Positions 8,412-30,390 of a stretch of 31,349 bases of DNA are shown here, in pieces; within the stretch, counting starts at the first letter, position 1, and each line of letters opens with the position of its first letter. A program made the translations under genes and the position numbers. Source of the stretch: a virus; IMG/VR virus record IMGVR_UViG_3300042887_005843, positions 1-31,349 of that record. One strand, written 5' to 3'. The notes below the pieces were generated by a model, which saw nothing but the letters and a program-made list of their open reading frames with translations, had not been told where the DNA came from and ran no database searches.

Positions 8412-8767
8412 TTTGGCATCACAAAAATTTTATATTTGCTAGACAAAATTTTGCATATTTTGTCTAAATCTATTACTTTTACTTTGTCTACTTGATCTTT
8501 TTCAATAATTTCGGTATTATCTTTACCATTTACCAAATCGTCAAGGTTTATGGCTTCAAAATCTTCTACTCGCATAGTTCCGTCAATTGGACTTTTTAGA
8601 TTGTTGAAACTGATTCTATCATCTTCTGTTGATGCATAGCATTTACCATTTAGACAAAAGTACATAATAAATCCTTTTTTATGTGCAATTCTTTCAAGTT
8701 TTGAACATACTTTTTCGTGAAGTGATTGTTTTTGTTTTTCGTGCATCAATTCACTGAAGGTCATCAT
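8408..8767 (-). CDS. Small protein with possible capsid-targeting N-terminus
   Basis: A 119-residue protein if started at the first of two adjacent ATG codons (8767, 8764). A longer frame to 8839 would overlap the divergent neighbour and is unlikely. It begins MMTFSELMHEKQKQ, similar in its TF-x-x-L-M-x-E pattern to the capsid-targeting peptides nearby, though it is the weakest member of the set. The rest contains a Cys-bearing segment (MYFCLNGKCYAS) and an acidic second half. It is translationally coupled (ATGA) to the zinc-finger nuclease. It shares a 33-base divergent region with the gene at 8801. Confidence 0.65.
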   Translation of the reverse strand: MMTFSELMHEKQKQSLHEKVCSKLERIAHKKGFIMYFCLNGKCYASTEDDRISFNNLKSPIDGTMRVEDFEAINLDDLVNGKDNTEIIEKDQVDKVKVIDLDKICKILSSKYKIFVMPK

Positions 8768-9595: not shown

Positions 9596-10465
9596 ATGGA
9601 CGCACTTGATTTAGTTCCTGTTAAAGAGATTCAATGTCTTGATAAAGGTTTTGTAAAACTGATTGATGTGATGCCAAGGATTGTTCCTGATGGGCAGACA
9701 TGTGATTACGCCATAGCACAAATGGCAAGGGTAAGTTATGGGGCTGGAACCAAATCTGTAAGTGAAGACAAGGGATTAATTCGGTATCTTCTCAGGCATA
9801 GCCACACATCTCCAATAGAAGCAATTGATTTTAAATTTGCAATGAAAATGCCTTTATTTATAGCTAGACAAATGTTTAGGCACAGAACCAGTAGCGTGAA
9901 TGAGATTTCAGGAAGATATTCAGTAATGAAAGATGAGTTTTATATTCCTGCTGTTGAAAACTTAAGAAAGCAGTCTACCACCAACAAGCAAGGTGGAGAT
10001 GAATTACTTGAGCAAGATATTGCTCAAGATTTTGTAGACAAGATTGATTTGAATTGCAAAGATTGTTATTCTATTTATTTGCAAATGCTTGATGCTGGAA
10101 TTTCCAGAGAGCAAGCTAGAATGATTTTGCCATTAAATTTGTATACAGAATTTTATTGGAAGCAAAATTTACATAATCTTCTGCATTTGCTGGCATTGAG
10201 AGCAGATTCTCATGCACAACAAGAAATTAGGGCTTATGCTGAGGCAATTCTTAAATTGATTAGTCCCTTGGTTCCTTGGACGATAGAGGCTTGGAATGAT
10301 TATCATCCAATGCGTGGAGCCATGAAGCTTACAAGTCTTGAGAAGGATGCATTATTTAATTCAGACATTGACGGTTCTAGTGTTTTGGATATTGATTCAA
10401 AAAATCAAAGAGAAGCACAAGAGTGGTGTTCTAAGAGAGAGCATTTGTTTAAAAAAATTATCTGA
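9596..10465 (+). CDS. thyX: Flavin-dependent thymidylate synthase ThyX
   Basis: The 289-residue enzyme makes dTMP from dUMP using methylene-tetrahydrofolate and FAD, supplying thymidine for phage DNA. The signature RHR-x-x-S-x-NE-x-S-x-RY is complete at residues 95-108 (RHRTSSVNEISGRY). It is preceded by the family's RHSHTSPIE segment (67-75). The conserved active-site region EQARMILPLNLYTEFYW lies in the second half, followed by LLALRADSHAQQEIR, another ThyX landmark. AAGGAG lies five bases before the ATG. Upstream is a terminator or leader structure that could regulate it. ThyX is common in phages and in bacteria lacking ThyA. A membrane protein gene follows 27 bases downstream. Confidence 0.95.
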   Translation: MDALDLVPVKEIQCLDKGFVKLIDVMPRIVPDGQTCDYAIAQMARVSYGAGTKSVSEDKGLIRYLLRHSHTSPIEAIDFKFAMKMPLFIARQMFRHRTSSVNEISGRYSVMKDEFYIPAVENLRKQSTTNKQGGDELLEQDIAQDFVDKIDLNCKDCYSIYLQMLDAGISREQARMILPLNLYTEFYWKQNLHNLLHLLALRADSHAQQEIRAYAEAILKLISPLVPWTIEAWNDYHPMRGAMKLTSLEKDALFNSDIDGSSVLDIDSKNQREAQEWCSKREHLFKKII

Positions 10466-11670: not shown

Positions 11671-12498
11671 ATGGCGCAAAATAAATTAAAATATATTGTT
11701 TTGGGATCATGGAGAACAGGATCTACTGTTTTGCATGAATCTTTAGAAAAACATCCAGATATAAAAATAGCTTATGAAATATTTCATGAAGACTCTTCTA
11801 TAAATACAAGTGGAATGATTGATATTTCTGATGTTATGAACAATCTTTTCGGAAAAAGAAAGTTTGATATTGAGAAAAGTCCATTTTATTGTAAATATCA
11901 CAAATCAAATCATAGTGTTTTATCTCAATTGCCTGGAAATTATCTTTGTTTGAATCAGCCTTTATATAAAATGGTTGATTATGTATTTGAAAAATTTAAT
12001 GCTTTTAAAATTATCTACTCTCAAATTAACATTAATGATAACATATGGAATTATTTATCATTAATTAAAGATCTTAAAATAATTAATACTGTTAGACAAA
12101 ATTATTTTGAAATATTAGTTTCTGTATTGCTGGCATATAAAACTAACACATGGCAAAAAACTGAAATAAATCAAAAAATATTAGATGAAAAAATAACAAT
12201 AGATAGACATCTTTGCGATGCTTTTTTTTATTTAACAGAATTTGAAACAGAACATTATACATCATTATTTTCTGACCACGACAATATTACAATTGATTAC
12301 AATAGTCTGTTTTCTTGGGATTCGACAATTGAAAAAGTGCAAAAATTTTTAGGTGTTAGGCATGTTAAACTGCCAAACAAATACTATAAAAGAACAGATG
12401 AAAAAATTAAAAATTTGGTAGAAAATTACAAAGAATTATCTGATTATTTCAAAAATACAAAATGGAAAAAATTCTTTGATATAAATATTTTATTATAA
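11671..12498 (+). CDS. PAPS-dependent sulfotransferase-like protein
   Basis: The 275-residue protein has the sulfotransferase 5'-phosphosulfate-binding loop near its start: LGSWRTGSTVLHESLEKHPD at residues 11-30. Near the C-terminus ITIDYNSLFSW followed by a FLGV helix matches the 'YE-x-L ... FLG' block of bacterial Stf0-type and carbohydrate sulfotransferases. The expected reaction transfers sulfate from PAPS to a sugar or lipid hydroxyl. GAGG lies ahead of the ATG. It faces two glycosyltransferase genes on the other strand, suggesting sulfation of a glycan. The strongly AT-rich sequence and poorly conserved middle leave substrate unknown. Confidence 0.75.
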   Translation: MAQNKLKYIVLGSWRTGSTVLHESLEKHPDIKIAYEIFHEDSSINTSGMIDISDVMNNLFGKRKFDIEKSPFYCKYHKSNHSVLSQLPGNYLCLNQPLYKMVDYVFEKFNAFKIIYSQININDNIWNYLSLIKDLKIINTVRQNYFEILVSVLLAYKTNTWQKTEINQKILDEKITIDRHLCDAFFYLTEFETEHYTSLFSDHDNITIDYNSLFSWDSTIEKVQKFLGVRHVKLPNKYYKRTDEKIKNLVENYKELSDYFKNTKWKKFFDINILL

Positions 12499-15053: not shown

Positions 15054-15860
15054 TTATACCTTTACAGTAGGAACATCATCTTGAGTGTTTGGATCTTTAG
15101 GATCGTCAATCACTCCTTGGAATGCAAAGCAATCTAATCTACTATAGTAAGCAAAATGTTCTTTTCTTACATAACAATAACCATTCATTCCAAAATTACT
15201 TCCCCAACTATTCTGCAACTTAACAAGCCAGCCATACTTGCTATGTTTCTTAAGCCCACAAGCCAGCATAGAATGCCCGCCACCGCCTCCATTTGGAAGA
15301 GGGGAGATTCCCTCTGCATCTACTTTAGAGAAGTTAGAACCCACAAGAATGCCAATATTAACGACAAAGCCAATACTCAAGGCAGAACATACTTCTTCAA
15401 ACGTAGTGCAACGATAAGCTTTCTCAAGTTTGAACCTAGCTGCATTATCATAAGCTGATTTTGTCAAACTATTCTTGTAGTAAACCCTATCACTAGGAAA
15501 TGCGCCAAGTTCGCAAATACCATACTTTTTAAGCATGTCAAGGCTGTTTGAGATATATGCTCCGGCATCTTGTCCGCCATTAATTAAAGCATAATGAAAA
15601 AATGGATTGAAACTTTCAACCACATCTTGTCTTTGTTTGTACAATATCTCCATACCAGCAGCTGTAGCATGAGCAACACAACTACTTGTGGATTTTTGGT
15701 TCAAAATCCTATGACCTTCCCAAGACATATCAATTTCTTGAAGCGTCCCAGAAAATCCTTGACCACTCTCTGAAAAATATGGAAAACTATCATCAACAGG
15801 ACTAAGTTGATGAGAAAGAACACGATAATATCCGTCGAAATAAATTGATGGGAAACTCAT
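15054..15860 (-). CDS. Papain-family (C1A) cysteine peptidase
   Basis: The 268-residue protein carries the papain catalytic set in order: Gln55 and Cys61 in NQKSTSSCVAHA, His196 in GGGGHSMLACG, and Asn217 in QNSWG. The spacing is typical of C1A peptidases. It has no signal peptide and no long inhibitory propeptide (only about 50 residues precede the catalytic Cys), so it should fold active in the cytoplasm or be packaged in the virion. AAAGGAG lies seven bases before the ATG and the gene starts one base after the preceding stop. Its substrate could be a host defence or surface protein, or a virion protein. Confidence 0.9.
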   Translation of the reverse strand: MSFPSIYFDGYYRVLSHQLSPVDDSFPYFSESGQGFSGTLQEIDMSWEGHRILNQKSTSSCVAHATAAGMEILYKQRQDVVESFNPFFHYALINGGQDAGAYISNSLDMLKKYGICELGAFPSDRVYYKNSLTKSAYDNAARFKLEKAYRCTTFEEVCSALSIGFVVNIGILVGSNFSKVDAEGISPLPNGGGGGHSMLACGLKKHSKYGWLVKLQNSWGSNFGMNGYCYVRKEHFAYYSRLDCFAFQGVIDDPKDPNTQDDVPTVKV

Positions 15861-16630: not shown

Positions 16631-17930
16631 TTTTTCTTATGTCTTCTTCAGTTAGATAAACATAGTTTCCCATCTCATCTATCATCATTTTTATTAATAA
16701 ATTTCTATTATCAATATTATTAATTTTACTTATGCTAGAAATTCCTCTTAATGGTCTTACGTTTCTCTCCCCTTTACTTTCCAGATAAGATTCTACATTG
16801 TGTAAGATTGATACAAAGTCATCAATATCATTAATTTTATCTTTATCTATAATATATTTTTTAACTGTTTTGCTTTTTATTAAATGCTTTTTTTGTTCTA
16901 AATTCATTGGAATTTCTCTTCCAGAGCCTTCACCTTCTCTAAACAATATTCTTCTTAAATTTTCAGAAAGATTTTGTTTTACATATGCTGAAAACCTTTT
17001 AGCTAATGTTTCTTTAGCTGATATGAAGTCACTGTGTAATTGATTTATTATTCCAAAACCTTCTGTTATATAAGGTTCGCTTGTTTCGTTTTTGTTTAAA
17101 CATGCAATTAACGCATCTAATGATTTTGTGTTATTTCTTCCACGGATTGGAAATTCATTGTTGATTTTCTCATGAATTTCACTTGTGTTACTAGATTTTA
17201 ACATTACATCAAATTGCTGTTCGAGTGGGTCTTCTTCAATTTCTTCAGGCGTTAGAGAATCCTCTTCTTTAGTTTCTTCTTCTTCAGTTGCTGGTGCTGT
17301 GACATTTATAAATTCGGCATCATCATCTTCGTCTTCACCATCTTCTTCTCCTTCTCCATCTTCTCCTTCATCATCTTCTTCTCCTTCTCCATCTTCTCCT
17401 TCATCATCTTCTTCTTTTGTTTCTTCTTCACTACTTTCTTTTTCTGGTTTTTCTTCTTCAGGTTCTTCCACTTCTATTGGTTTTTTCTTACCGGAAGTAG
17501 GAGCAGTTGTTTCTGGCTTTGGAACAATTGGGGCCATTCCAAAAACTCTATGGTCAATGTCTTGTTCGGCATTTTTTCTTAACATTGTTACGATTCTAAC
17601 AGCTGCAACTTCATTTCCTGTAATTCCAATCAAACTGTCAAGGAACTTTTCGTACGCCAATTGAAGTTGCTTTTTCAAAGTTATAGTTGCTGAATTCAGA
17701 CTTCTTGTACCCAAACCAGCCCTAAATCCATGATACATGCCTCTTAATGCACCACCAATACCACTAAGAAAGCCGCTGCTGCTAAGATTGCTGTATTCAT
17801 TGAACAAACTCTTGTTCTTTATTTTGATAGCAAGAGATATTAGATCAGAAGGATGAATTTGTTTTTCTTCCATAAATGAAATAAAGTCTCTATTAGCTAG
17901 CTCTTTTGAAAATTTGAAAAATGCATTCAT
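16617..17930 (-). CDS. Large acidic protein, probable virion component
   Basis: A 437-residue protein with three parts. Residues 1-75 hold a Phe-rich start (MNAFFKFSKELANRDFISFM) loosely like the capsid-targeting peptides nearby, then a Gly-rich hydrophobic stretch (GFLSGIGGALRGMYHGF). Residues about 135-235 are an extremely acidic low-complexity linker of Glu, Asp, Gly and Pro, part of it made of two exact 33-base repeats. The C-terminal 200 residues are helical and charged. AGAGGAT precedes the ATG. Acidic linkers of this sort occur in scaffold or packaged proteins, but no family is recognised. It starts 29 bases from the divergent hldE gene. Confidence 0.65.
   Translation of the reverse strand: MNAFFKFSKELANRDFISFMEEKQIHPSDLISLAIKIKNKSLFNEYSNLSSSGFLSGIGGALRGMYHGFRAGLGTRSLNSATITLKKQLQLAYEKFLDSLIGITGNEVAAVRIVTMLRKNAEQDIDHRVFGMAPIVPKPETTAPTSGKKKPIEVEEPEEEKPEKESSEEETKEEDDEGEDGEGEEDDEGEDGEGEEDGEDEDDDAEFINVTAPATEEEETKEEDSLTPEEIEEDPLEQQFDVMLKSSNTSEIHEKINNEFPIRGRNNTKSLDALIACLNKNETSEPYITEGFGIINQLHSDFISAKETLAKRFSAYVKQNLSENLRRILFREGEGSGREIPMNLEQKKHLIKSKTVKKYIIDKDKINDIDDFVSILHNVESYLESKGERNVRPLRGISSISKINNIDNRNLLIKMMIDEMGNYVYLTEEDIRKIEVM
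17342..17407. repeat. Two exact 33-base tandem repeats coding an acidic linker
   Basis: Two identical 33-base units (17342-17374, 17375-17407), each coding on the minus strand for an 11-residue DDEGEDGEGEE block, with partial copies on both sides. The length keeps frame, so copy number can change without breaking the gene. Confidence 0.9.
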
Positions 17931-17959
17931 TTGATAAAATCCTCTTACTATATTTAAGC

Positions 17960-19297
17960 ATGCACGAATTATTTAACGAATTACTCAACAAAAAAATAAC
18001 TATTTCAGTGGTTGGTGACACACTGATTGATGAATTTTATAAAGTAAATGTAAATAGAATCAGCCCAGAATTTCCAATTCCTGTAATGCTTTCAAATAGC
18101 GGCAATCCATATAAAACAGTGTGTGGAGGAGCAGCAAACGTAGCAAATCAGTTCAAATATTTTAATATTGACACCAAATTGGTATCTTTTTTGAACTTTT
18201 ATGCAAAAGAACTATGTGATGCAGAAGGAATAGATATTAGTCATTCACATGAGTGTGATACATGTCAAGTGCCTATAAAGAAGAGATTTTATCATGATGA
18301 TCATCCAATTATGCGATGGGATGTAGAAGCGAAAAATTATGGTGTTGATAATCTTGCACAACAATTAAAAAATTTAAATCCACCCGAATCAGATGTTGTT
18401 ATTTATTCTGATTATGATAAAGGTCTATTTACCAAAAAATTCAACATGACAGGAAATGGAATTTCGTTAGTTGATCCAAAAATAGATGTTTCCTTATGGA
18501 ATAAATGTTCTGTATTTAAACCAAACTATCATGAAGCAGTTAGAATAACCGGAGAGAAAGATATAAAAAAACAAATTGATAAAATTATCAAAAAATTAAA
18601 ATGTGAACAAGTTGTTATTACAAAATCTGGTGAAGGAGTTTTTGGTTATTCAAAAGAAGAAGGATATGTTGAAGTAATACCTGAAAATGAATTACCAAAG
18701 CCAGTTAGTGTGTCAGGAGCAGGAGATGCGTTTGCTGGATTTTTAGCTATGGGTTTAGGATGTGGATTTAGCCTTAAACAATCTATGACATGGGCATTTA
18801 ACGCTGGAACTATTTATGTATCTAACAAATACAATCAACCACTTTGTATGGCAGATTTTTTGCGTAAAGAAAAATATGTTAAAAATTGGGAATTCCTTGC
18901 AAATAGAAACTTTAAGTTGGTTGTAACTGGTGGTTGTTTCGATGTGCTTCACAAAGGACATATGCACAGTCTTAGAGAAGCTAAAAAGCATGGAGATAGA
19001 CTTTGTGTAACTTTGAATTCTGATGAAAGTATTAAGCGGTTAAAGGGACCAAAGCGTCCAATCATGCCATTAGAATCAAGAATTGAAGTACTGAAATCTT
19101 TAGAATTCGTAGATTATATTGTTGTATTTGAATCAAACACACCTGAAGATGTTTTGAAAGTATTAAAACCAGATGTCTATGTTAAAGGAACTGATTATAA
19201 AAACAAAGAACTACACGGTTCTGAATATGTGAAACGTGTAGTTCTTGTTGATCTCGTTGAAGGCTATTCAACTACTAAGTTTTTGGGAGGCGGTTAA
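17960..19297 (+). CDS. hldE: HldE: heptose 7-phosphate kinase / heptose 1-phosphate adenylyltransferase
   Basis: The 445-residue bifunctional protein makes ADP-heptose precursors for lipopolysaccharide or other glycans. The N-terminal PfkB-type kinase domain (1-305) has GGAANVA (56-62) and the catalytic SGAGDAF (252-258). The C-terminal cytidylyltransferase-like domain (318-445) has GGCFDVLHKGH (324-334, with the HxGH nucleotide-binding motif), KRLKGPKRPI (359-368) and VEGYSTTKFL near the end. The order and motifs match HldE (E. coli 477 residues). The start at 17960 is preferred over 17921, which would overlap the divergent gene. No Shine-Dalgarno is visible. The nearby glycosyltransferases and sulfotransferase suggest a shared glycan pathway. 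Separate enzymes for the remaining steps are not in this window. Confidence 0.9.
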   Translation: MHELFNELLNKKITISVVGDTLIDEFYKVNVNRISPEFPIPVMLSNSGNPYKTVCGGAANVANQFKYFNIDTKLVSFLNFYAKELCDAEGIDISHSHECDTCQVPIKKRFYHDDHPIMRWDVEAKNYGVDNLAQQLKNLNPPESDVVIYSDYDKGLFTKKFNMTGNGISLVDPKIDVSLWNKCSVFKPNYHEAVRITGEKDIKKQIDKIIKKLKCEQVVITKSGEGVFGYSKEEGYVEVIPENELPKPVSVSGAGDAFAGFLAMGLGCGFSLKQSMTWAFNAGTIYVSNKYNQPLCMADFLRKEKYVKNWEFLANRNFKLVVTGGCFDVLHKGHMHSLREAKKHGDRLCVTLNSDESIKRLKGPKRPIMPLESRIEVLKSLEFVDYIVVFESNTPEDVLKVLKPDVYVKGTDYKNKELHGSEYVKRVVLVDLVEGYSTTKFLGGG

Positions 19298-24473: not shown

Positions 24474-24800
24474 TTGCCTACATATATATTTGGCTGTAAG
24501 AAATGTAAAAATGAATACGAAACATTCACCAGATTCGATGAAACTGGTAAATATTCAGATGTAAGTTGCCCTAAGTGTAACTCAAAATCAAAGAAAAAAT
24601 TAATCACTTCTGCCCATATTAAATTTGCTCAACCAAAAGATACAAGCAAATTTGATAATTTTAATTATAGGGCTGGATATAATTTGGAACAAGCCACTGA
24701 TTTAAGAAGGAAAGCCGAAGCTGCTTCCCATATGGGAACAGCACCATACAACCCAATTGATGATATTAGCAGCGGAAAACACTTTGGTGAGGTGCAGTAA
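24474..24800 (+). CDS. FmdB-family zinc ribbon protein
   Basis: A 108-residue protein starting at TTG (24474), with AGAGGA upstream. The start MPTYIFGCKKCKNEYETF and the four Cys (8, 11, 32, 35; C-x2-C ... CPKC) match the FmdB/CxxC zinc ribbon family, whose members usually begin MP-x-Y-x-Y-x-C. The remaining 70 residues are basic then acidic and disordered. FmdB proteins are small putative regulators of unknown precise role. The prkA gene starts two bases after its stop, so the two are probably coexpressed. Confidence 0.75.
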   Translation: MPTYIFGCKKCKNEYETFTRFDETGKYSDVSCPKCNSKSKKKLITSAHIKFAQPKDTSKFDNFNYRAGYNLEQATDLRRKAEAASHMGTAPYNPIDDISSGKHFGEVQ

Positions 24801-24801
24801 C

Positions 24802-26874
24802 ATGGGAAGACTCAGCGCATTAGTCGAAAACACAACAACACAAGATTTTGAAAAACTACACGAAGAAATCAGTTTTGATGAATATCTTGATAAGTGTTAT
24901 GCAAATCCAAAACTTGTCAGAAACTCATTTCAAAGAATTTATGATATGATTGTTTCTGAAGGAACAAATGAACTCGAAAGATATCGCAAGAAAGTCGTTA
25001 CATATAAATTTTTTGAAAATCATCCACAAATTAAAATTTTCGGTATTGAAGAACAATTAGAAGCACTTGTAAGCCACTTTAAAGGCGCAGCAGGCGGCTT
25101 TGGACCAGAAAAGCGTATTCTTCTTCTCTGCGGTCCAGTAGGTTCATCCAAATCAACTATTCTTCGCCTTATCAAAAGAGGCCTTGAAGCTTACTCACGC
25201 ATTGATGATGGCGCTCTTTATACCTTCAAGTGGGTTAACCTTCCAGCAGGAGCAGAAGGTATCTATACTAGTGATAATTGCTGCTGCCCAATGAATGAAG
25301 AACCACTCAAACTCATTCCTATTGAAATCCGTAAGAAAATTCTTACAGATCTTAATAAAATTCTTCGTGATAAGGCTTCAGATAAAGAAAAATCTACAGT
25401 CTATAATTTGCATGTTGATGGAGAGCTTGATCCAAAGTGCAAGTTCTTTTATGAAAAATTGCTTGAACAATACAAGGGCGATTGGAGCAAAGTAATTGCC
25501 AATCACATTGTTGTGAAGAGAATGCACTATAGTGAAACAAATAGAGTTGGTATCGCATCATTCCAACCCAAGGACGAAAAGAACCAAGATAGCACAGAAC
25601 TTACTGGTGATATTAACTTTGCTTTGCTCCCAACCTTTGGAAGTGACTCTGATCCAAGAACATTCAGTTTTGATGGGGAATTTCAAGTTGCCAATCGTGG
25701 CATTATTGAATTTATCGAAATGCTTAAGCTAGAAGTAGCATTTCTTTACGATCTTCTTGGTGCATCTCAAGAACAATCTGTAAAGCCTAAGAAGTTTGCT
25801 CAAATATCAATCGATGAAGCAATTGTTGGTCACACAAATATTCCCGAATACGAAAAACTTAAGAACAACCAATACATGGAAGCTCTAAAGGACAGAACTG
25901 TTAAGATTGAAATTCCATATCTTCTTGAATGGCAGAACGAACTTAAGGTGTTGGAACAAGATTACAACAGTGAAAAGATTGCTCAACATATTGCGCCACA
26001 CACACTTGAAATTGCTGCTCTTTTCGCAGTTCTTACTCGTCTTGATGAGGATAAAGACAGCAAGATCAGCCTTGTAGAAAAGGCTGAACTTTACGATGGC
26101 AAGATGCTTCCGGGCTGGACAATTGATCGTGTTAAAGAACTTAAAGAAAAGAATCCACAAGAAGGCATCAGTGGTCTTTCTGCTAGATACATTCAAGATA
26201 AAATTTCAAGTACTTTGAGTAGCAGACACGATTATATTAATCCATTCATGGTTCTCAATGCTCTTAAGAGTGGATTGGAATCACACAGTCTAATTACTAA
26301 TAAAGACATTGTTAGAAAATATCAAAACTGTATCACTCTTACAACCAAAAAGCTTGATGATATTCTCAAGCACGAAGTACAAAAAGCTTTGGTTGGCGAT
26401 GAAGAAGCTATTGTTAGACTTTGCTCAAACTATATTGACAACTTGATGGCATATATCAACAAGTCAAAGATCACTAATAAAATCACTGGAAGAGAAGAGA
26501 GTCCAGATGAAAAACTAATGCGAAGCATTGAAAGCAAGATTGATGTTCCTGAAGCAACCTGTGATGATTTCAGACGTATGATCGCAGCTTTTATTGGCGA
26601 TCTTGCAATCAAACAAAAGATATTCCGTTGGGATAGCAATGCCCTTCTCAAAAAAGCTTTGGAGGCAAAACTCTTTGAAGACACTAAAGATCATATTAAA
26701 ATTAGCGCATTCTCTAGTGGCGCAAGCACTGTTGACGCTGATGTTCAAAAGAAAATTGATGCAGTCAAACAAAGACTCATTGAAAAATATGGTTATAACG
26801 AGCAATCAGCCACAGATGTCCTCGAATATGTAAGCTCCATATTTGCAAGAGGTGATCTGGCTGATGAAGAATAA
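24802..26874 (+). CDS. prkA: PrkA/YeaG serine protein kinase (AAA domain)
   Basis: The 690-residue protein matches bacterial PrkA (E. coli YeaG 644). Walker A is GPVGSSKSTI at residues 111-120, within the LLLCGPVGSSKS block typical of PrkA. The region IAFLY/VAFLYDLLGASQEQ ... ISIDEAIVGHTNIPEYEKL followed by ALKDRTVKIEIPYLLEWQNE is the PrkA core after the AAA domain, with the conserved H-N and DR residues. The C-terminal third is the PrkA-specific helical domain. The start at 24802 is chosen for its GAGGTG and because the longer frame enters the fmdB gene. In bacteria the kinase acts with YeaH and SpoVR in starvation responses. Codon choice is richer in CTT and GGC than the neighbours, hinting at acquisition. 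Confidence 0.9.
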   Translation: MGRLSALVENTTTQDFEKLHEEISFDEYLDKCYANPKLVRNSFQRIYDMIVSEGTNELERYRKKVVTYKFFENHPQIKIFGIEEQLEALVSHFKGAAGGFGPEKRILLLCGPVGSSKSTILRLIKRGLEAYSRIDDGALYTFKWVNLPAGAEGIYTSDNCCCPMNEEPLKLIPIEIRKKILTDLNKILRDKASDKEKSTVYNLHVDGELDPKCKFFYEKLLEQYKGDWSKVIANHIVVKRMHYSETNRVGIASFQPKDEKNQDSTELTGDINFALLPTFGSDSDPRTFSFDGEFQVANRGIIEFIEMLKLEVAFLYDLLGASQEQSVKPKKFAQISIDEAIVGHTNIPEYEKLKNNQYMEALKDRTVKIEIPYLLEWQNELKVLEQDYNSEKIAQHIAPHTLEIAALFAVLTRLDEDKDSKISLVEKAELYDGKMLPGWTIDRVKELKEKNPQEGISGLSARYIQDKISSTLSSRHDYINPFMVLNALKSGLESHSLITNKDIVRKYQNCITLTTKKLDDILKHEVQKALVGDEEAIVRLCSNYIDNLMAYINKSKITNKITGREESPDEKLMRSIESKIDVPEATCDDFRRMIAAFIGDLAIKQKIFRWDSNALLKKALEAKLFEDTKDHIKISAFSSGASTVDADVQKKIDAVKQRLIEKYGYNEQSATDVLEYVSSIFARGDLADEE

Positions 26875-26895
26875 TACAGAGGAGTAATGATTTTT

Positions 26896-27621
26896 ATGCC
26901 GTATAATTATAATTGCAAACAATGCTTGAAAAAGTTTGCCCATAAAGATAAAAATAAAAAATTCTGCTCACAGAAATGTGTAAAAGAGCATAGTAAAAAA
27001 GGGATTAATTTAATTTGTTTTAATTGCGAACAAATTGTTTATGTTTCAGAGTATCGTGCAAAAAAATACAAAAAAGTATTTTGCAGCTTGGATTGTAGTA
27101 GAAGTTGGCAGGTGAAAAGAAGACCAACAAGAATTTGTGAAAATTGTAAGATTTTTTTCAAAAAAAAATCAAGATCAAACGCTATGTTTTGTTCTTTGGC
27201 TTGTAGATTAAATTCTGATTACAATATAAACCAATTGGCAAACATGCGAAAAAAACAATCTCATCATAAAATAAATAATTTAGAAAAAAAAGGATATAAA
27301 TTGCTTTCTGATATGAAATTTGAATTTGAAATACAATGGATTTTTGGCAAAAGATTTGTTGCAGATGCTTATTTGAAAGATTACAATGCAATTGTTCAGT
27401 TTGACGGAGATTATTGGCATGGTAATCCAAAAATATTTAAAAATTTGTCAGAAATGCAGCAAAAAAATAAAAGAACAGATGAAAGAGCAAATGCAGTTGC
27501 TAAAAAAGAAGGATTAAAAATTCTCAGATTTTGGGAACACGATATAAAAAACAATGAAAACTGTGTTAAAAACAAGATTTTCAAATTTCTTAAGGAGAAC
27601 AAGTCTTGCCACGCCGTATAG
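26896..27621 (+). CDS. Zinc-finger protein with Vsr/DUF559-like endonuclease domain, probable homing endonuclease
   Basis: A 241-residue protein starting at ATG 26896, with GAGGAG at 26879-26884. The in-frame ATG at 26887 lies only two bases after that site. The first 110 residues hold three Cys-rich fingers (pattern C-x2-C ... C-x3-C). The C-terminal domain has VQFDGDYWHGNP, a set of Arg/Asp-rich helices and LKILRFWEHDIKNN, resembling Vsr-like single-strand nicking endonucleases often found as free-standing homing endonucleases in phages. It sits between prkA and yeaH, and its last 16 bases overlap the yeaH start. It is a strong sign of insertion into an operon. Confidence 0.75.
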   Translation: MPYNYNCKQCLKKFAHKDKNKKFCSQKCVKEHSKKGINLICFNCEQIVYVSEYRAKKYKKVFCSLDCSRSWQVKRRPTRICENCKIFFKKKSRSNAMFCSLACRLNSDYNINQLANMRKKQSHHKINNLEKKGYKLLSDMKFEFEIQWIFGKRFVADAYLKDYNAIVQFDGDYWHGNPKIFKNLSEMQQKNKRTDERANAVAKKEGLKILRFWEHDIKNNENCVKNKIFKFLKENKSCHAV

Positions 27622-28793
27622 ATTCCGATCATAAGGATTTTAGAGATATCGTAGGCGGAAAAATTCGCAAAGGACTTAGAAAGTTCATTAAAAGTGGCGA
27701 AGTTTTCCGCAGACGAGGTAAAAATGGTAAAATTACAATAAAAATTCCTGCAATTGACATTCCTCATTTCCTTCATGGAAAGAATCCAAACGGCGTTGGT
27801 CGTGGTGAAGGAAACGAGGGTGATGTCATAGGAAAGGATAAAGATAAAGATAAAGCAAAAGGAAACGAAGCTGGAGATAGTGAAGGCGAAGGAATCATCG
27901 TTCAAATCGATATGGAAGACATCCTTCAGTTTATGAAAGACGAATTAGAACTTCCAAATATTAAGCCAAAATCAAGTGCTAATATGGAAGAAGTAAAGAT
28001 TAAATATAACAACATATCACTTGTTGGCCCAGAATCACTTCGTCATACAAGAAGAACCATGCTTCAAGCTCTTAAAAGGCTTTGTGGTACGGGAGAAATC
28101 AATAATCTTAAGACAGTTCCCGGATGTAAAGATCCAGTCAGATGTATCAATCCAATTAATGCAGACAAAAGATATCGTCAATTTAAAGAAATAAAAATAC
28201 CATCAAGCAATGCTGTTGTGATGTTCGCTCGTGATGCAAGTGCTTCAATGGATGAAAAGAAAGTAGCAGTTGTTTCTGATATGTCTTATTGGATTGACAC
28301 ATATATTAGAAGTTTCTACGAAAGAGTTGAAAGATTTTATGTTTGGCATGATGTTGTCGCACATGAAGTTGATGCAAAAGATTTTTACAGAGTAAGATAT
28401 GGCGGTGGAACAAAATGTTCTAGCGCACTTAAATTAATGGCAAGTCAGTTTGATAATAGATTTCCTCCTTCAAACTGGAATATTTATGTTTTTTACTTTA
28501 CAGATGGTGAAAACTTTGATAATGATAACGAAGAATTTGTTAACATTATCAGGAAAGATTTTCCAGACAGTAAAGTTAACCTTGTGTCAATTACACAAAT
28601 TGGATCATATTTTTACCGTAATTCAGTAGCAGAAGCTGTTGAGAAAGAAATGGTTGATTCTTCTTTGGGAAATAATGTCATAGTGACAGAAATAACACAA
28701 GAAATGCTTAATGATGAAACAAAAAGAAATGAATCAATTATTAAAGCAATAAAAGAAATACTTGGTAACGCAAACCAAACTTCTGGAGCCTGA
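27606..28793 (+). CDS. yeaH: YeaH/YhbH (DUF444) von Willebrand A-like protein
   Basis: The 395-residue protein starts at TTG 27606, with AAGGAG eight bases upstream. Its MPRRIDSDHKDFRDIV start is typical of the family. A VWA-like metal site is present: Asp210-x-Ser212-x-Ser214 (DASAS), Thr269 in GGGTK and Asp300 in FTDGENF. A Gly/Lys-rich spacer (about 58-98) follows the N-terminal basic domain. In bacteria YeaH is the partner of PrkA and is coexpressed with it. Its stop shares sequence with the following SpoVR start region (two bases between). The preceding endonuclease gene overlaps its start. Confidence 0.9.
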   Translation: MPRRIDSDHKDFRDIVGGKIRKGLRKFIKSGEVFRRRGKNGKITIKIPAIDIPHFLHGKNPNGVGRGEGNEGDVIGKDKDKDKAKGNEAGDSEGEGIIVQIDMEDILQFMKDELELPNIKPKSSANMEEVKIKYNNISLVGPESLRHTRRTMLQALKRLCGTGEINNLKTVPGCKDPVRCINPINADKRYRQFKEIKIPSSNAVVMFARDASASMDEKKVAVVSDMSYWIDTYIRSFYERVERFYVWHDVVAHEVDAKDFYRVRYGGGTKCSSALKLMASQFDNRFPPSNWNIYVFYFTDGENFDNDNEEFVNIIRKDFPDSKVNLVSITQIGSYFYRNSVAEAVEKEMVDSSLGNNVIVTEITQEMLNDETKRNESIIKAIKEILGNANQTSGA

Positions 28794-28794
28794 T

Positions 28795-30390
28795 ATGTCT
28801 GATAATTTTCTGTTTGGTTCACCCGTTCTGTTTGGATCATCAACCACTCCCGGTGTACCAATTCCAGAAGAATTACAAAAACACATTCCTACTATTTTTA
28901 AAGCTTGTAAAGATTTTGGTCTTGATTTTTATCCAACCATTGTGCAAATGCTTTCTCACGATGAAATGAGCGAAGTTGCAAGCTATGGTGGATTCGCAGT
29001 TCGATATCCACATTGGAAATTTGGTGCTGAATACGAAGAAATGCAAAGAGGTTATCTTTACGGCAATCATAGAATATATGAAATGGTGGTAAATTGCAAC
29101 CCATCCTATCTCTATTGTCTTAATTCAAACACGCTTCTTGATAACATTACGGTTATTGCACATGCTCTTGGGCATGTGCATTTTTTCAAGAATAATATTC
29201 ATTTTTCTAGAACTAATACGAATGCTCATAATGAGCTTGCTAATAATGGGTCTAATATAAGAAAATATATTTCAAGATATGGTAATGAAGAAGTTGGTGA
29301 ATTCATGGATATGTTAATGCGAGTTGAAACTCTCGTTGATACATCCAATATTTGGAAAGATAGAATTGCTAAAGATGTTGTTATAACTGATAAAAAAGAA
29401 TATAAATTTCCAAAGAGAATTATAACAAATCATGATTACATGGAAGATTGGGTTAATACTAAAGAATTTATAGATGGGCAAAATAAAAAAATTCAAAGTG
29501 ATGAAATGGTCAAAGACCTTGGTATTTTGAGTCATCCTGAGACAGATATTTTTGGTTACATTAAGAATCACGCTCCACTTAAACCTTGGCAACGTGATAT
29601 TGCCGAAATGCTTTATAATGAAGCAATTTATTTTAGTCCTCAAGGCAAAACAAAGACCGGAAACGAAGGTTTTGCGTCATGGACGGATTACAATATCATG
29701 GCAAAACAGGGTTATTGTGGTCTTGGTCAAGAGAATTATGATGATGGTATTGTAGAGTACGCAATTCACAAAGCTGGTGTGCTTGGCGGAAAGTATAGTA
29801 CGAATCCATACAAACTTGGATTTACTTTATTGACAGACATAGAAGATAGATGGAATAAAGGTAAATTTGGAACAGAATATGAAGAGTGCAGAGATGAACT
29901 TCGAAAAGAAAATTGGGATGAAAATCTCAACCTTGGCAAACAAAAAGTGTTTGATGTGTGCAAGAATTATGATGATTATCAATTGATTAATGAATTTTTC
30001 ACTAAAGATTTTTGTGAAAAATATGAATTTTTTGAATACAAGAAGCATCCTAACGGCGAAATAAAGATTGAAAGTCGTGATCACAAGAAAATTAAAAAAG
30101 GTTTGTTGAAAAAGTACATCAATCGTGGTCTTCCGATTATTAAATTGTTAGCTCCAAGACTAAAGGGTAAAATATTCTTTATGGAGCATCAATGGGATGG
30201 ATTGGAAATATACAAACCTTATGCAACAGAAGTAATCAGGTCAATTGCATGGCTTTGTAAATCTTCTGTTGCTTTACAGACAAAAAATCAAAATTCAGAA
30301 GACATTGTTTACTATCTTAATGCAGACATAGGCTACTTTTTGGATGTTGATGTTAAGGTCATGACCAAGGCACAATTTTTAAAGATTTAA
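28795..30390 (+). CDS. spoVR: SpoVR family protein
   Basis: The 531-residue protein matches SpoVR (E. coli YcgB about 510). HALGHVHFFKNN (123-134) is the variant here of the family's His-rich motif, and NPYKLGFTLLTDIEDRW in the second half is the SpoVR signature. ATG 28795 lies two bases after the yeaH stop, with GGAG just ahead. The function of SpoVR is unsettled: it was named for a defect in sporulation cortex formation in Bacillus and is widespread in Gram-negatives alongside PrkA and YeaH. No signal peptide is seen. The presence of all three genes in order is the main context clue. Confidence 0.9.
   Translation: MSDNFLFGSPVLFGSSTTPGVPIPEELQKHIPTIFKACKDFGLDFYPTIVQMLSHDEMSEVASYGGFAVRYPHWKFGAEYEEMQRGYLYGNHRIYEMVVNCNPSYLYCLNSNTLLDNITVIAHALGHVHFFKNNIHFSRTNTNAHNELANNGSNIRKYISRYGNEEVGEFMDMLMRVETLVDTSNIWKDRIAKDVVITDKKEYKFPKRIITNHDYMEDWVNTKEFIDGQNKKIQSDEMVKDLGILSHPETDIFGYIKNHAPLKPWQRDIAEMLYNEAIYFSPQGKTKTGNEGFASWTDYNIMAKQGYCGLGQENYDDGIVEYAIHKAGVLGGKYSTNPYKLGFTLLTDIEDRWNKGKFGTEYEECRDELRKENWDENLNLGKQKVFDVCKNYDDYQLINEFFTKDFCEKYEFFEYKKHPNGEIKIESRDHKKIKKGLLKKYINRGLPIIKLLAPRLKGKIFFMEHQWDGLEIYKPYATEVIRSIAWLCKSSVALQTKNQNSEDIVYYLNADIGYFLDVDVKVMTKAQFLKI

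Follow-up and report, generated by a model that had tools for sequence, protein, structure and literature searches.

The prkA-yeaH-spoVR genes in a lineage of large T4-like phages: distribution, inheritance, SpoVR inteins and a predicted gluzincin-like fold of SpoVR

The window, that is the whole stretch of DNA analysed here, is IMG/VR virus record IMGVR_UViG_3300042887_005843 (31,349 bases), a fragment of a T4-like phage that carries the genes prkA, yeaH (DUF444) and spoVR in this order. Its T4-like gene set comprises a gp32-type single-strand binding protein, UvsX, a deoxynucleoside monophosphate (dNMP) kinase, a T4-type head-closure protein and ThyX. A bacterial contig was ruled out by the phage core genes on the window (gp32-like, UvsX, head-closure and dNMP kinase genes) and on related long records, and the first-pass annotation of the window had taken it rightly for phage DNA. 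Among 21 related long records, T4 Gp23 was found in 8, terminase in 5 (4 over the cut-off) and sheath in 7; a gp21-type (S77) head protease was found in 5, beside Gp23 in each. Some of the 21 have none of these phage genes and are fragments, so that missing matches there mean little.

The genes of the locus are listed in Table 1. The first-pass annotation had described three tightly spaced genes in order with intact motifs. All the motifs are present (GPVGSSKS in PrkA, the metal-ion-dependent adhesion site (MIDAS) in YeaH and the SpoVR motifs) and the order stands; prkA and yeaH are not direct neighbours, since an endonuclease open reading frame (ORF) lies between them and leaves no empty gap. 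A loss of catalytic residues, which had been considered as an objection, was not seen at the ATPase and MIDAS positions, while the lysine proposed for kinase catalysis is indeed not conserved. Relatives and Shine-Dalgarno-like stretches were used to set the gene starts. Most relatives start near ATG 24802 (prkA) and ATG 28795 (spoVR), and GGTGAG or GGAG lies upstream; these are the likely starts, ATG 24802 being favoured over TTG 24757. The yeaH start is a TTG with AAGGAG upstream.

Table 1. Genes of the prkA-yeaH-spoVR locus and their immediate neighbours in the window.
Feature	Position	Strand	Matches and remarks
ORF24060, small conserved phage protein	24060..24350	+	part of the neighbouring o194-ORF24060-FmdB module; neither Pfam nor PHROG match
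FmdB-type zinc ribbon protein, TTG start	24474..24800	+	PF09723, 34.9 bits (cut-off 34.4, marginal)
PrkA-family AAA+ ATPase, elsewhere annotated 'serine protein kinase'	24802..26874	+	PF08298, 268.7 bits, and PF06798, 241.5 bits (cut-off 25 each); phrog_22605
DUF559/HNH-type endonuclease	26887..27621	+	PF04480, 27.7 bits (cut-off 20.6); PHROG HNH and endonuclease families
YeaH (DUF444) VWA protein, complete MIDAS	27606..28793	+	PF04285, 206 bits (cut-off 27)
SpoVR family protein without intein, predicted gluzincin-like fold	28795..30390	+	PF04293, 320.9 bits (cut-off 27)

Six peptide patterns from the window PrkA retrieved 131 IMG/VR stretches, all of which encode a relative; 80 were kept, including near-identical copies from different samples. 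PrkA, YeaH and SpoVR were found in order on one strand in 75 of these 80 loci, in two of which (L021, L055) SpoVR is truncated where the contig ends, and in the remaining five (L002, L006, L075, L076, L077) the contig end was reached before SpoVR. An annotated phage collection of 50,697 records yielded PrkA in 16, DUF444 in 15 and SpoVR in 11. Thermus phages make up 11, 11 and 7 of these, respectively, and the others are uncultured huge phages and, for PrkA and DUF444, Enterobacter phage LAU1. The trio is thus common in this large T4-like lineage and rare in deposited records, which answers a question that the first-pass annotation could not settle. LAU1 was set aside: its YeaG and YeaH lie at the very end of the record, the YeaG gene has ∼86% DNA identity to the chromosomal yeaG of E. 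coli, and the two are likely a prophage flank. A further set of YeaG-type IMG/VR loci (138 stretches encoding a relative, 80 kept) was not counted as phage evidence because of possible host flanks or misassigned contigs.

The trio is not new in phages, as Thermus phages and phages of 634-642 kb carry distant copies. Thermus phages phiYS40, TMA, phiLo, MN1 and Lalka have the three families together in deposited, partly annotated records ('SpoVR' or 'stage V sporulation protein R' and 'serine kinase' in phiYS40 and phiLo), but in the order vWA-SpoVR-PrkA, with a PrkA that is 28-31% identical and falls in a separate clade. In the huge phages LR745206, LR756504 and LR756502 (634-642 kb), PrkA is followed by YeaH within 1.4 kb, and SpoVR is close by in the first two and ∼240 kb away in LR756502; however, their YeaG is of the proteobacterial type, with 61-65% identity to that of Enterobacter. 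The 595-kb huge phage LR756511 has the same order as the window and belongs to the same clade, with PrkA 63.5%, YeaH 50.9% and SpoVR 52.1% identical; it differs in that the DUF559 gene was not matched in the 32 kb compared, and it was deposited unannotated. For the Ralstonia jumbo phage RsoM2USA, the portion of PMC8504454 available to us lists PrkA (ORF30) and SpoVR (ORF28), whereas the intervening ORF29 is unnamed there in the main text; this phage was absent among the matches in the phage collection.

Bacterial loci were compared as the best 80, nearest to the window PrkA among the matches listed, and were checked by tblastn. All three genes were found in 53, in identical order in 52 of them, as in yeaG-yeaH-ycgB and prkA-yhbH-spoVR; in the other (L162) prkA is divergent. 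PrkA and YeaH only were found in 10 loci and PrkA only in 17. The phage proteins differ from the bacterial trio in forming their own clade, and the best-segment identity is in most loci 31-44% for YeaH and 31-42% for SpoVR; the best identity of viral PrkA to the bacterial rows compared is 52-56%. A PrkA tree of 96 rows was obtained by a quick search with bacterial rows from the same best 80, so that a nearer bacterium is possible. The 46 PrkA rows of the viral lineage form one clade (SH-like approximate likelihood ratio test, SH-aLRT, 100; stem 1.18 changes per column) and the Thermus phages another, and the nearest bacterial rows are a Planctomycetota metagenome-assembled genome (MAG) and another MAG (support 87-92). 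The SpoVR tree needs two label changes, as does the PrkA tree. Recent theft of a host gene is ruled out for this lineage by the PrkA tree of these rows.

Distances among the loci were compared by Mantel correlation. PrkA and SpoVR were strongly correlated (r 0.905, 42 loci), and both followed the head-closure protein gp4 (SpoVR 0.895, 18 loci; PrkA 0.846, 20 loci). Correlations were weaker with HldE (0.63, 0.69) and o194 (0.71, 0.76); no value was obtained for PrkA-YeaH and YeaH-HldE, in which some pairs have no shared columns. The clade and the correlations with a phage head gene indicate that the trio behaves as an inherited part of the phage genome. Pairwise ratios of nonsynonymous to synonymous substitution (dN/dS) of the trio among the window, L003 and L008 were 0.03-0.12, rough values because synonymous sites are near saturation, and they show purifying selection in these three closest lineages compared; the phage does keep all three proteins intact, as had been stated at first reading, and does so as a conserved unit. 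From tree, synteny and co-divergence, the trio was probably acquired once by the ancestor of the large T4-like phage lineage and then inherited with the phage core.

The window PrkA is matched by PDB entries 9xip, 9xiq and 9xir at E 5e-206. The Walker A lysine K117 (in GPVGSSKS) was found in 31/31 PrkA rows, and H344, N346, D364, R365 and R413 are invariant across the same rows; N346, R365 and R413 presumably have AAA+ sensor and Arg-finger roles. In YeaH, the MIDAS residues D210-x-S212-x-S214, T269 and D300 are invariant in 25 DUF444 rows. A sequence search of the PDB gave no relative of YeaH; the C-terminal half is a VWA domain, as a structure model (mean predicted local distance difference test, pLDDT, 70) matches VWA domains with Z ∼15. 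An AAA+ ring with a VWA/MIDAS partner, as proposed for PrkA and YeaH, is also found in MoxR-type and CobS/CobT machines, and SpoVR is then an extra third component. Mutants of yeaG and yeaH are alike in phenotype according to the text available from PMC4664914, and YcgB, YeaH and YeaG are reported as co-conserved in that available from PMC2375023.

SpoVR was compared in a set of 87 sequences (48 bacterial, the window, 34 viral contigs, LR756511 and three Thermus phages; the proteobacterial type was left out). With residue numbering starting at 28795, E96, H123, H127, E291, G292, A294, N337, P338, Y339 and D394 are present in 87/87. An AlphaFold2 model built with 33 viral sequences (mean pLDDT 79.9, predicted template modelling score 0.76) places H-x3-H within a helix of residues 114-133 and NEGxA within a helix of residues 287-304. 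VIA-align was run on the best 528 chains from Foldseek, 507 of which were aligned, and the resulting list includes M32 carboxypeptidases, LTA4 hydrolase, M61, ACE/ACE2 and DPP III. By title, 46 of 50 rows are what we take from general knowledge to be gluzincin-type, with many repeats of ACE/ACE2 and Z of 6.2-9.8, where a Z below 8 may reflect merely a common arrangement. The top row is a Colwellia lipoprotein, 3o0y (Z 11.4, 192 residues, root-mean-square deviation 4.4), the class of which, as for three other rows, is not assignable by title. By sequence, SpoVR gave only two Gid8-type matches in the PDB (E 0.03-0.04). In hhalign against eleven M1 peptidases, the best local pair was NEGxA with the third-ligand motif (14%), followed by AHxxGH with HExxH (2.6%), which is a hint only.

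By these matches SpoVR may resemble the gluzincin metallopeptidases (M1, M32, M2, M61) in fold and in the NEGxA third-ligand motif, with E291 of this helix as the predicted ligand, but it differs in having no Glu in the first motif, and ∼160 residues separate the two motifs. The position of the HExxH glutamate is Val in 52/53 bacterial SpoVR (H-V-x-x-H) and Ala in 73/75 phage loci (H-A-x-x-H), the remaining two being unread by the pattern. SpoVR is accordingly classed here as a gluzincin-like metal protein by prediction, with the putative ligands kept, and not as a peptidase. Papers that mention SpoVR together with metallopeptidase gave no earlier statement of such a fold, their passages being on other matters; papers that mention it with metalloprotease may contain one.

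The SpoVR of the window has no intein, whereas relatives have SpoVR frames of ∼870-975 or ∼1370 residues with one or two in-frame inserts. These inserts have Cys1, a C-terminal HN followed by Ser/Thr, and splicing and LAGLIDADG domains, and both PF14890 (intein splicing) and PF14528 (LAGLIDADG) were over the cut-off in 4/4 insert-bearing SpoVR scanned. Site a lies between N100 and residue 101 (VIN|C...HN|TNP) and site b between A294 and S295 (NEGxA|C...HN|S), beside the invariant E291. A complete SpoVR was found in 42 of the 45 dereplicated loci other than the window, with an intein at site a in 5, at site b in 8 and at both in 2, so that 11/42 have at least one (L018, L020, L028, L038, L044, L046, L047, L048, L051, L068, L080). 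On the SpoVR tree the intein labels need 5 changes for site a and 6 for site b, which fits repeated gain or loss. Inteins at this protein are not restricted to phages: in bacterial locus L120 an intein occupies site b, with 40-43% identity to its phage counterparts at that site except the shorter one of L080 (27%), and bacterial L106 appears to begin an intein before its sequence ends. A literature search gave no paper joining intein and SpoVR. The two sites, at two conserved motifs, flag important residues and connect the phage and bacterial copies.

The neighbourhood was counted in 46 dereplicated loci, the window included. PrkA and FmdB were found in all 46, YeaH in 44, SpoVR in 43, HldE in 40, o194 in 35, ORF24060 in 30, head closure in 23, ThyX in 22 and ClpP in 21. 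The 30 homologues of ORF24060 were detected at E≤1e-4, and a single-linkage cluster covers 44 of the 46 loci. The first-pass annotation had placed an FmdB gene before the trio. It is present there but is not bound to it: in five loci (L062, L069, L071, L072, L077) the o194-ORF24060-FmdB module lies on the opposite strand, with FmdB ∼5 to 9 kb from prkA (ORF24060 was undetected in L071 and L077), and FmdB was found near prkA in 0/80 bacterial loci. By these two results FmdB was rejected as a member of the trio; it is probably a neighbour only.

The content of the prkA-yeaH gap varies among phages, with small genes or endonucleases (26887-27621 in the window; L010, L059, L081). A DUF559-type homologue was found there in 3 of the 46 loci, the window included, and a 75-residue ORF family in 14. 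As different genes occur there in different phages, the gap looks like an insertion hot spot. The DUF559/HNH-type gene of the window is probably a free-standing homing-type insertion. Directly downstream of spoVR, 21/46 loci have a ClpP-family protease gene, e.g. L065:15117-15809, with Ser and His motifs present by eye; in the 21 long records a ClpP-family gene was found in 12 and a ClpX-type C-terminal domain in 8. The ClpP-type gene is unlikely to be the head protease, because that function falls to a separate T4-type gene next to Gp23.

A gene for an HldE-like bifunctional PfkB/cytidylyltransferase lies at 17921-19297 of the window. Homologues occur in 40 of the 46 loci, nearly always ahead of the trio and in its orientation. 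ThyX lies at 9596-10465; the upstream region of relatives has ThyX in 22/46, ThyA in 10 and DHFR in 11, and ThyX never co-occurs with ThyA or DHFR in the 46 loci, as if two thymidylate pathways substitute each other. A papain-like C1 peptidase gene (15054-15860, minus strand) and a sulfotransferase-like gene (11671-12498) are also present on the window. Several proteins of unknown function, with starts near 8726, 10965, 16617 (minus strand), 19313 (minus strand), 21577 (minus strand) and 23068, have amphipathic N-termini of the F-x-x-F/Y type, which we take to resemble T4 capsid-targeting sequences.

We consider the trio a phage-owned, lineage-inherited copy of the prkA-yeaH-spoVR operon that encodes a remodelling machine of an AAA+ protein, a VWA protein and a metal protein, a reading to which we give about an even chance. 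PrkA would assemble as an ATP-driven AAA+ ring, YeaH would dock as an adaptor through its VWA/MIDAS domain, and SpoVR would be the effector, a gluzincin-fold protein that may bind metal without the canonical HExxH glutamate. In the infected cell, the machine may act on protein (or RNA-protein) targets by remodelling, activating or removing them. Over the course of a long infection it could thus provide the stress protection that hosts themselves activate when starved or otherwise stressed.

Several results weigh against this reading. Foldseek with the SpoVR model gave no PDB chain at E≤0.001, the fold match of Z 9-11 is moderate for a model of 531 residues, and a global profile run against M1 peptidases gave 0.06%. 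The first motif is H-x4-H in 51 of 64 proteobacterial-type SpoVR, and the putative metal site is therefore not uniform. In 13 of the 80 bacterial loci, neither yeaH nor spoVR was detected in the 5.6 kb or more of sequence that follows prkA, so joint encoding of the three is not required. The part of PMC12456014 available to us reports that B. subtilis SpoVR binds RNA in vivo, which is not predicted by a gluzincin-like fold and leaves an RNA role open to SpoVR; that of PMC4664914 states an in vitro kinase activity of YeaG. We found no experiment on a phage copy of the trio in the literature.

A wider form of this reading holds that one AAA+/VWA/zincin-fold machine serves as a protein-remodelling or removal system of the phage, that SpoVR is the missing effector in bacteria too, and that the downstream ClpP-type protease cooperates with it in part of the lineage; as a whole it is tentative and rather unlikely. 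The ClpP part is favoured by the place of this gene after spoVR in 21/46 loci, by the separate identity of the head protease and by the longest three of the IMG/VR contigs searched (299-341 kb), in which ClpP was found and a ClpX-type domain was not. Against this part, ClpP is far from the trio in two of these three contigs and in LR756511, and ClpP and a ClpX-type domain occur together in LR756511 and two other contigs.

Control of host dormancy, which the first-pass annotation had suggested, or of sporulation is unlikely; in this reading the genes would make the host become or stay dormant and thereby shelter the phage. The bacterial rows closest to the phage PrkA among the best 80, the Planctomycetota MAG and the other MAG, are, like E. 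coli, not classical endospore formers. The main text of a paper on sporulation genes of gut phages has no spoVR, prkA or yhbH (PMC10294663). On the other side, the available portion of PMC8940887 ranks spoVR first in abundance among the sporulation-type viral genes of an oxygen-minimum-zone virome and interprets it as dormancy control, and E. coli yeaG and yeaH mutants regrow sooner after nitrogen starvation, according to that of PMC4664914.

The first-pass annotation had also proposed a takeover of the phosphorylation signal, in which phage PrkA would phosphorylate host YeaH, SpoVR or other proteins and steer a starvation or dormancy programme. We regard this as improbable. In its favour are the family name and reports of phosphorylation in vitro to which PMC13001217 and PMC4664914, both available in part, refer, and the same portion of PMC4664914 reports that YeaG K116A, R232A and K426A each fail to complement in E. 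coli. Among these three positions, only the K116 column is conserved in the PrkA rows. The K426 column, located through an alignment of window PrkA and YeaG at 26% identity, has Asp in 29/31 rows; of the other two, one has Ser and the YeaG row alone has Lys. A Lys one residue further is not conserved and is missing in phage rows such as L069 and L078, and the PrkA rows other than YeaG do not have the catalytic Lys of a Hanks-type Ser/Thr kinase at this position. For B. anthracis PrkA, neither kinase nor protease activity was detected, and oligomers formed once ATP was added, according to the text available from PMC13001217. The phage, moreover, has its own YeaH and SpoVR and no need of those of the host. 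With the K426 column mostly Asp the kinase label is doubtful, and the published assays conflict.

A role in the virion, with the machine aiding head assembly or packaging instead of acting on the host, seems equally poor as an explanation. In its favour, the trio of Thermus phage Lalka8 has a minor head protein gene on one side and TerL on the other, genes for dNMP kinase and terminase come after that of phiYS40, and the T4-type head-closure gene is within ∼10 kb upstream in 23/46 loci. Against it, 5/5 contigs with both Gp23 and the gp21-type protease have these two genes together at another place, cellular relatives have no virion role, and with PrkA in only 16 of the 50,697 phage records of all kinds, heads in general do without it.

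With the remodelling machine as the preferred reading, the new information lies in the distribution of the trio, the SpoVR inteins and the predicted SpoVR fold. For SpoVR, a concrete biochemical hypothesis follows from the predicted metal site and gluzincin-type fold, and the cultivated Thermus phages with the three families are a testable system. The prkA-yeaH-spoVR genes are widespread in bacteria and their biochemistry is unsettled; the phage lineage offers a second context in which their targets may be found.

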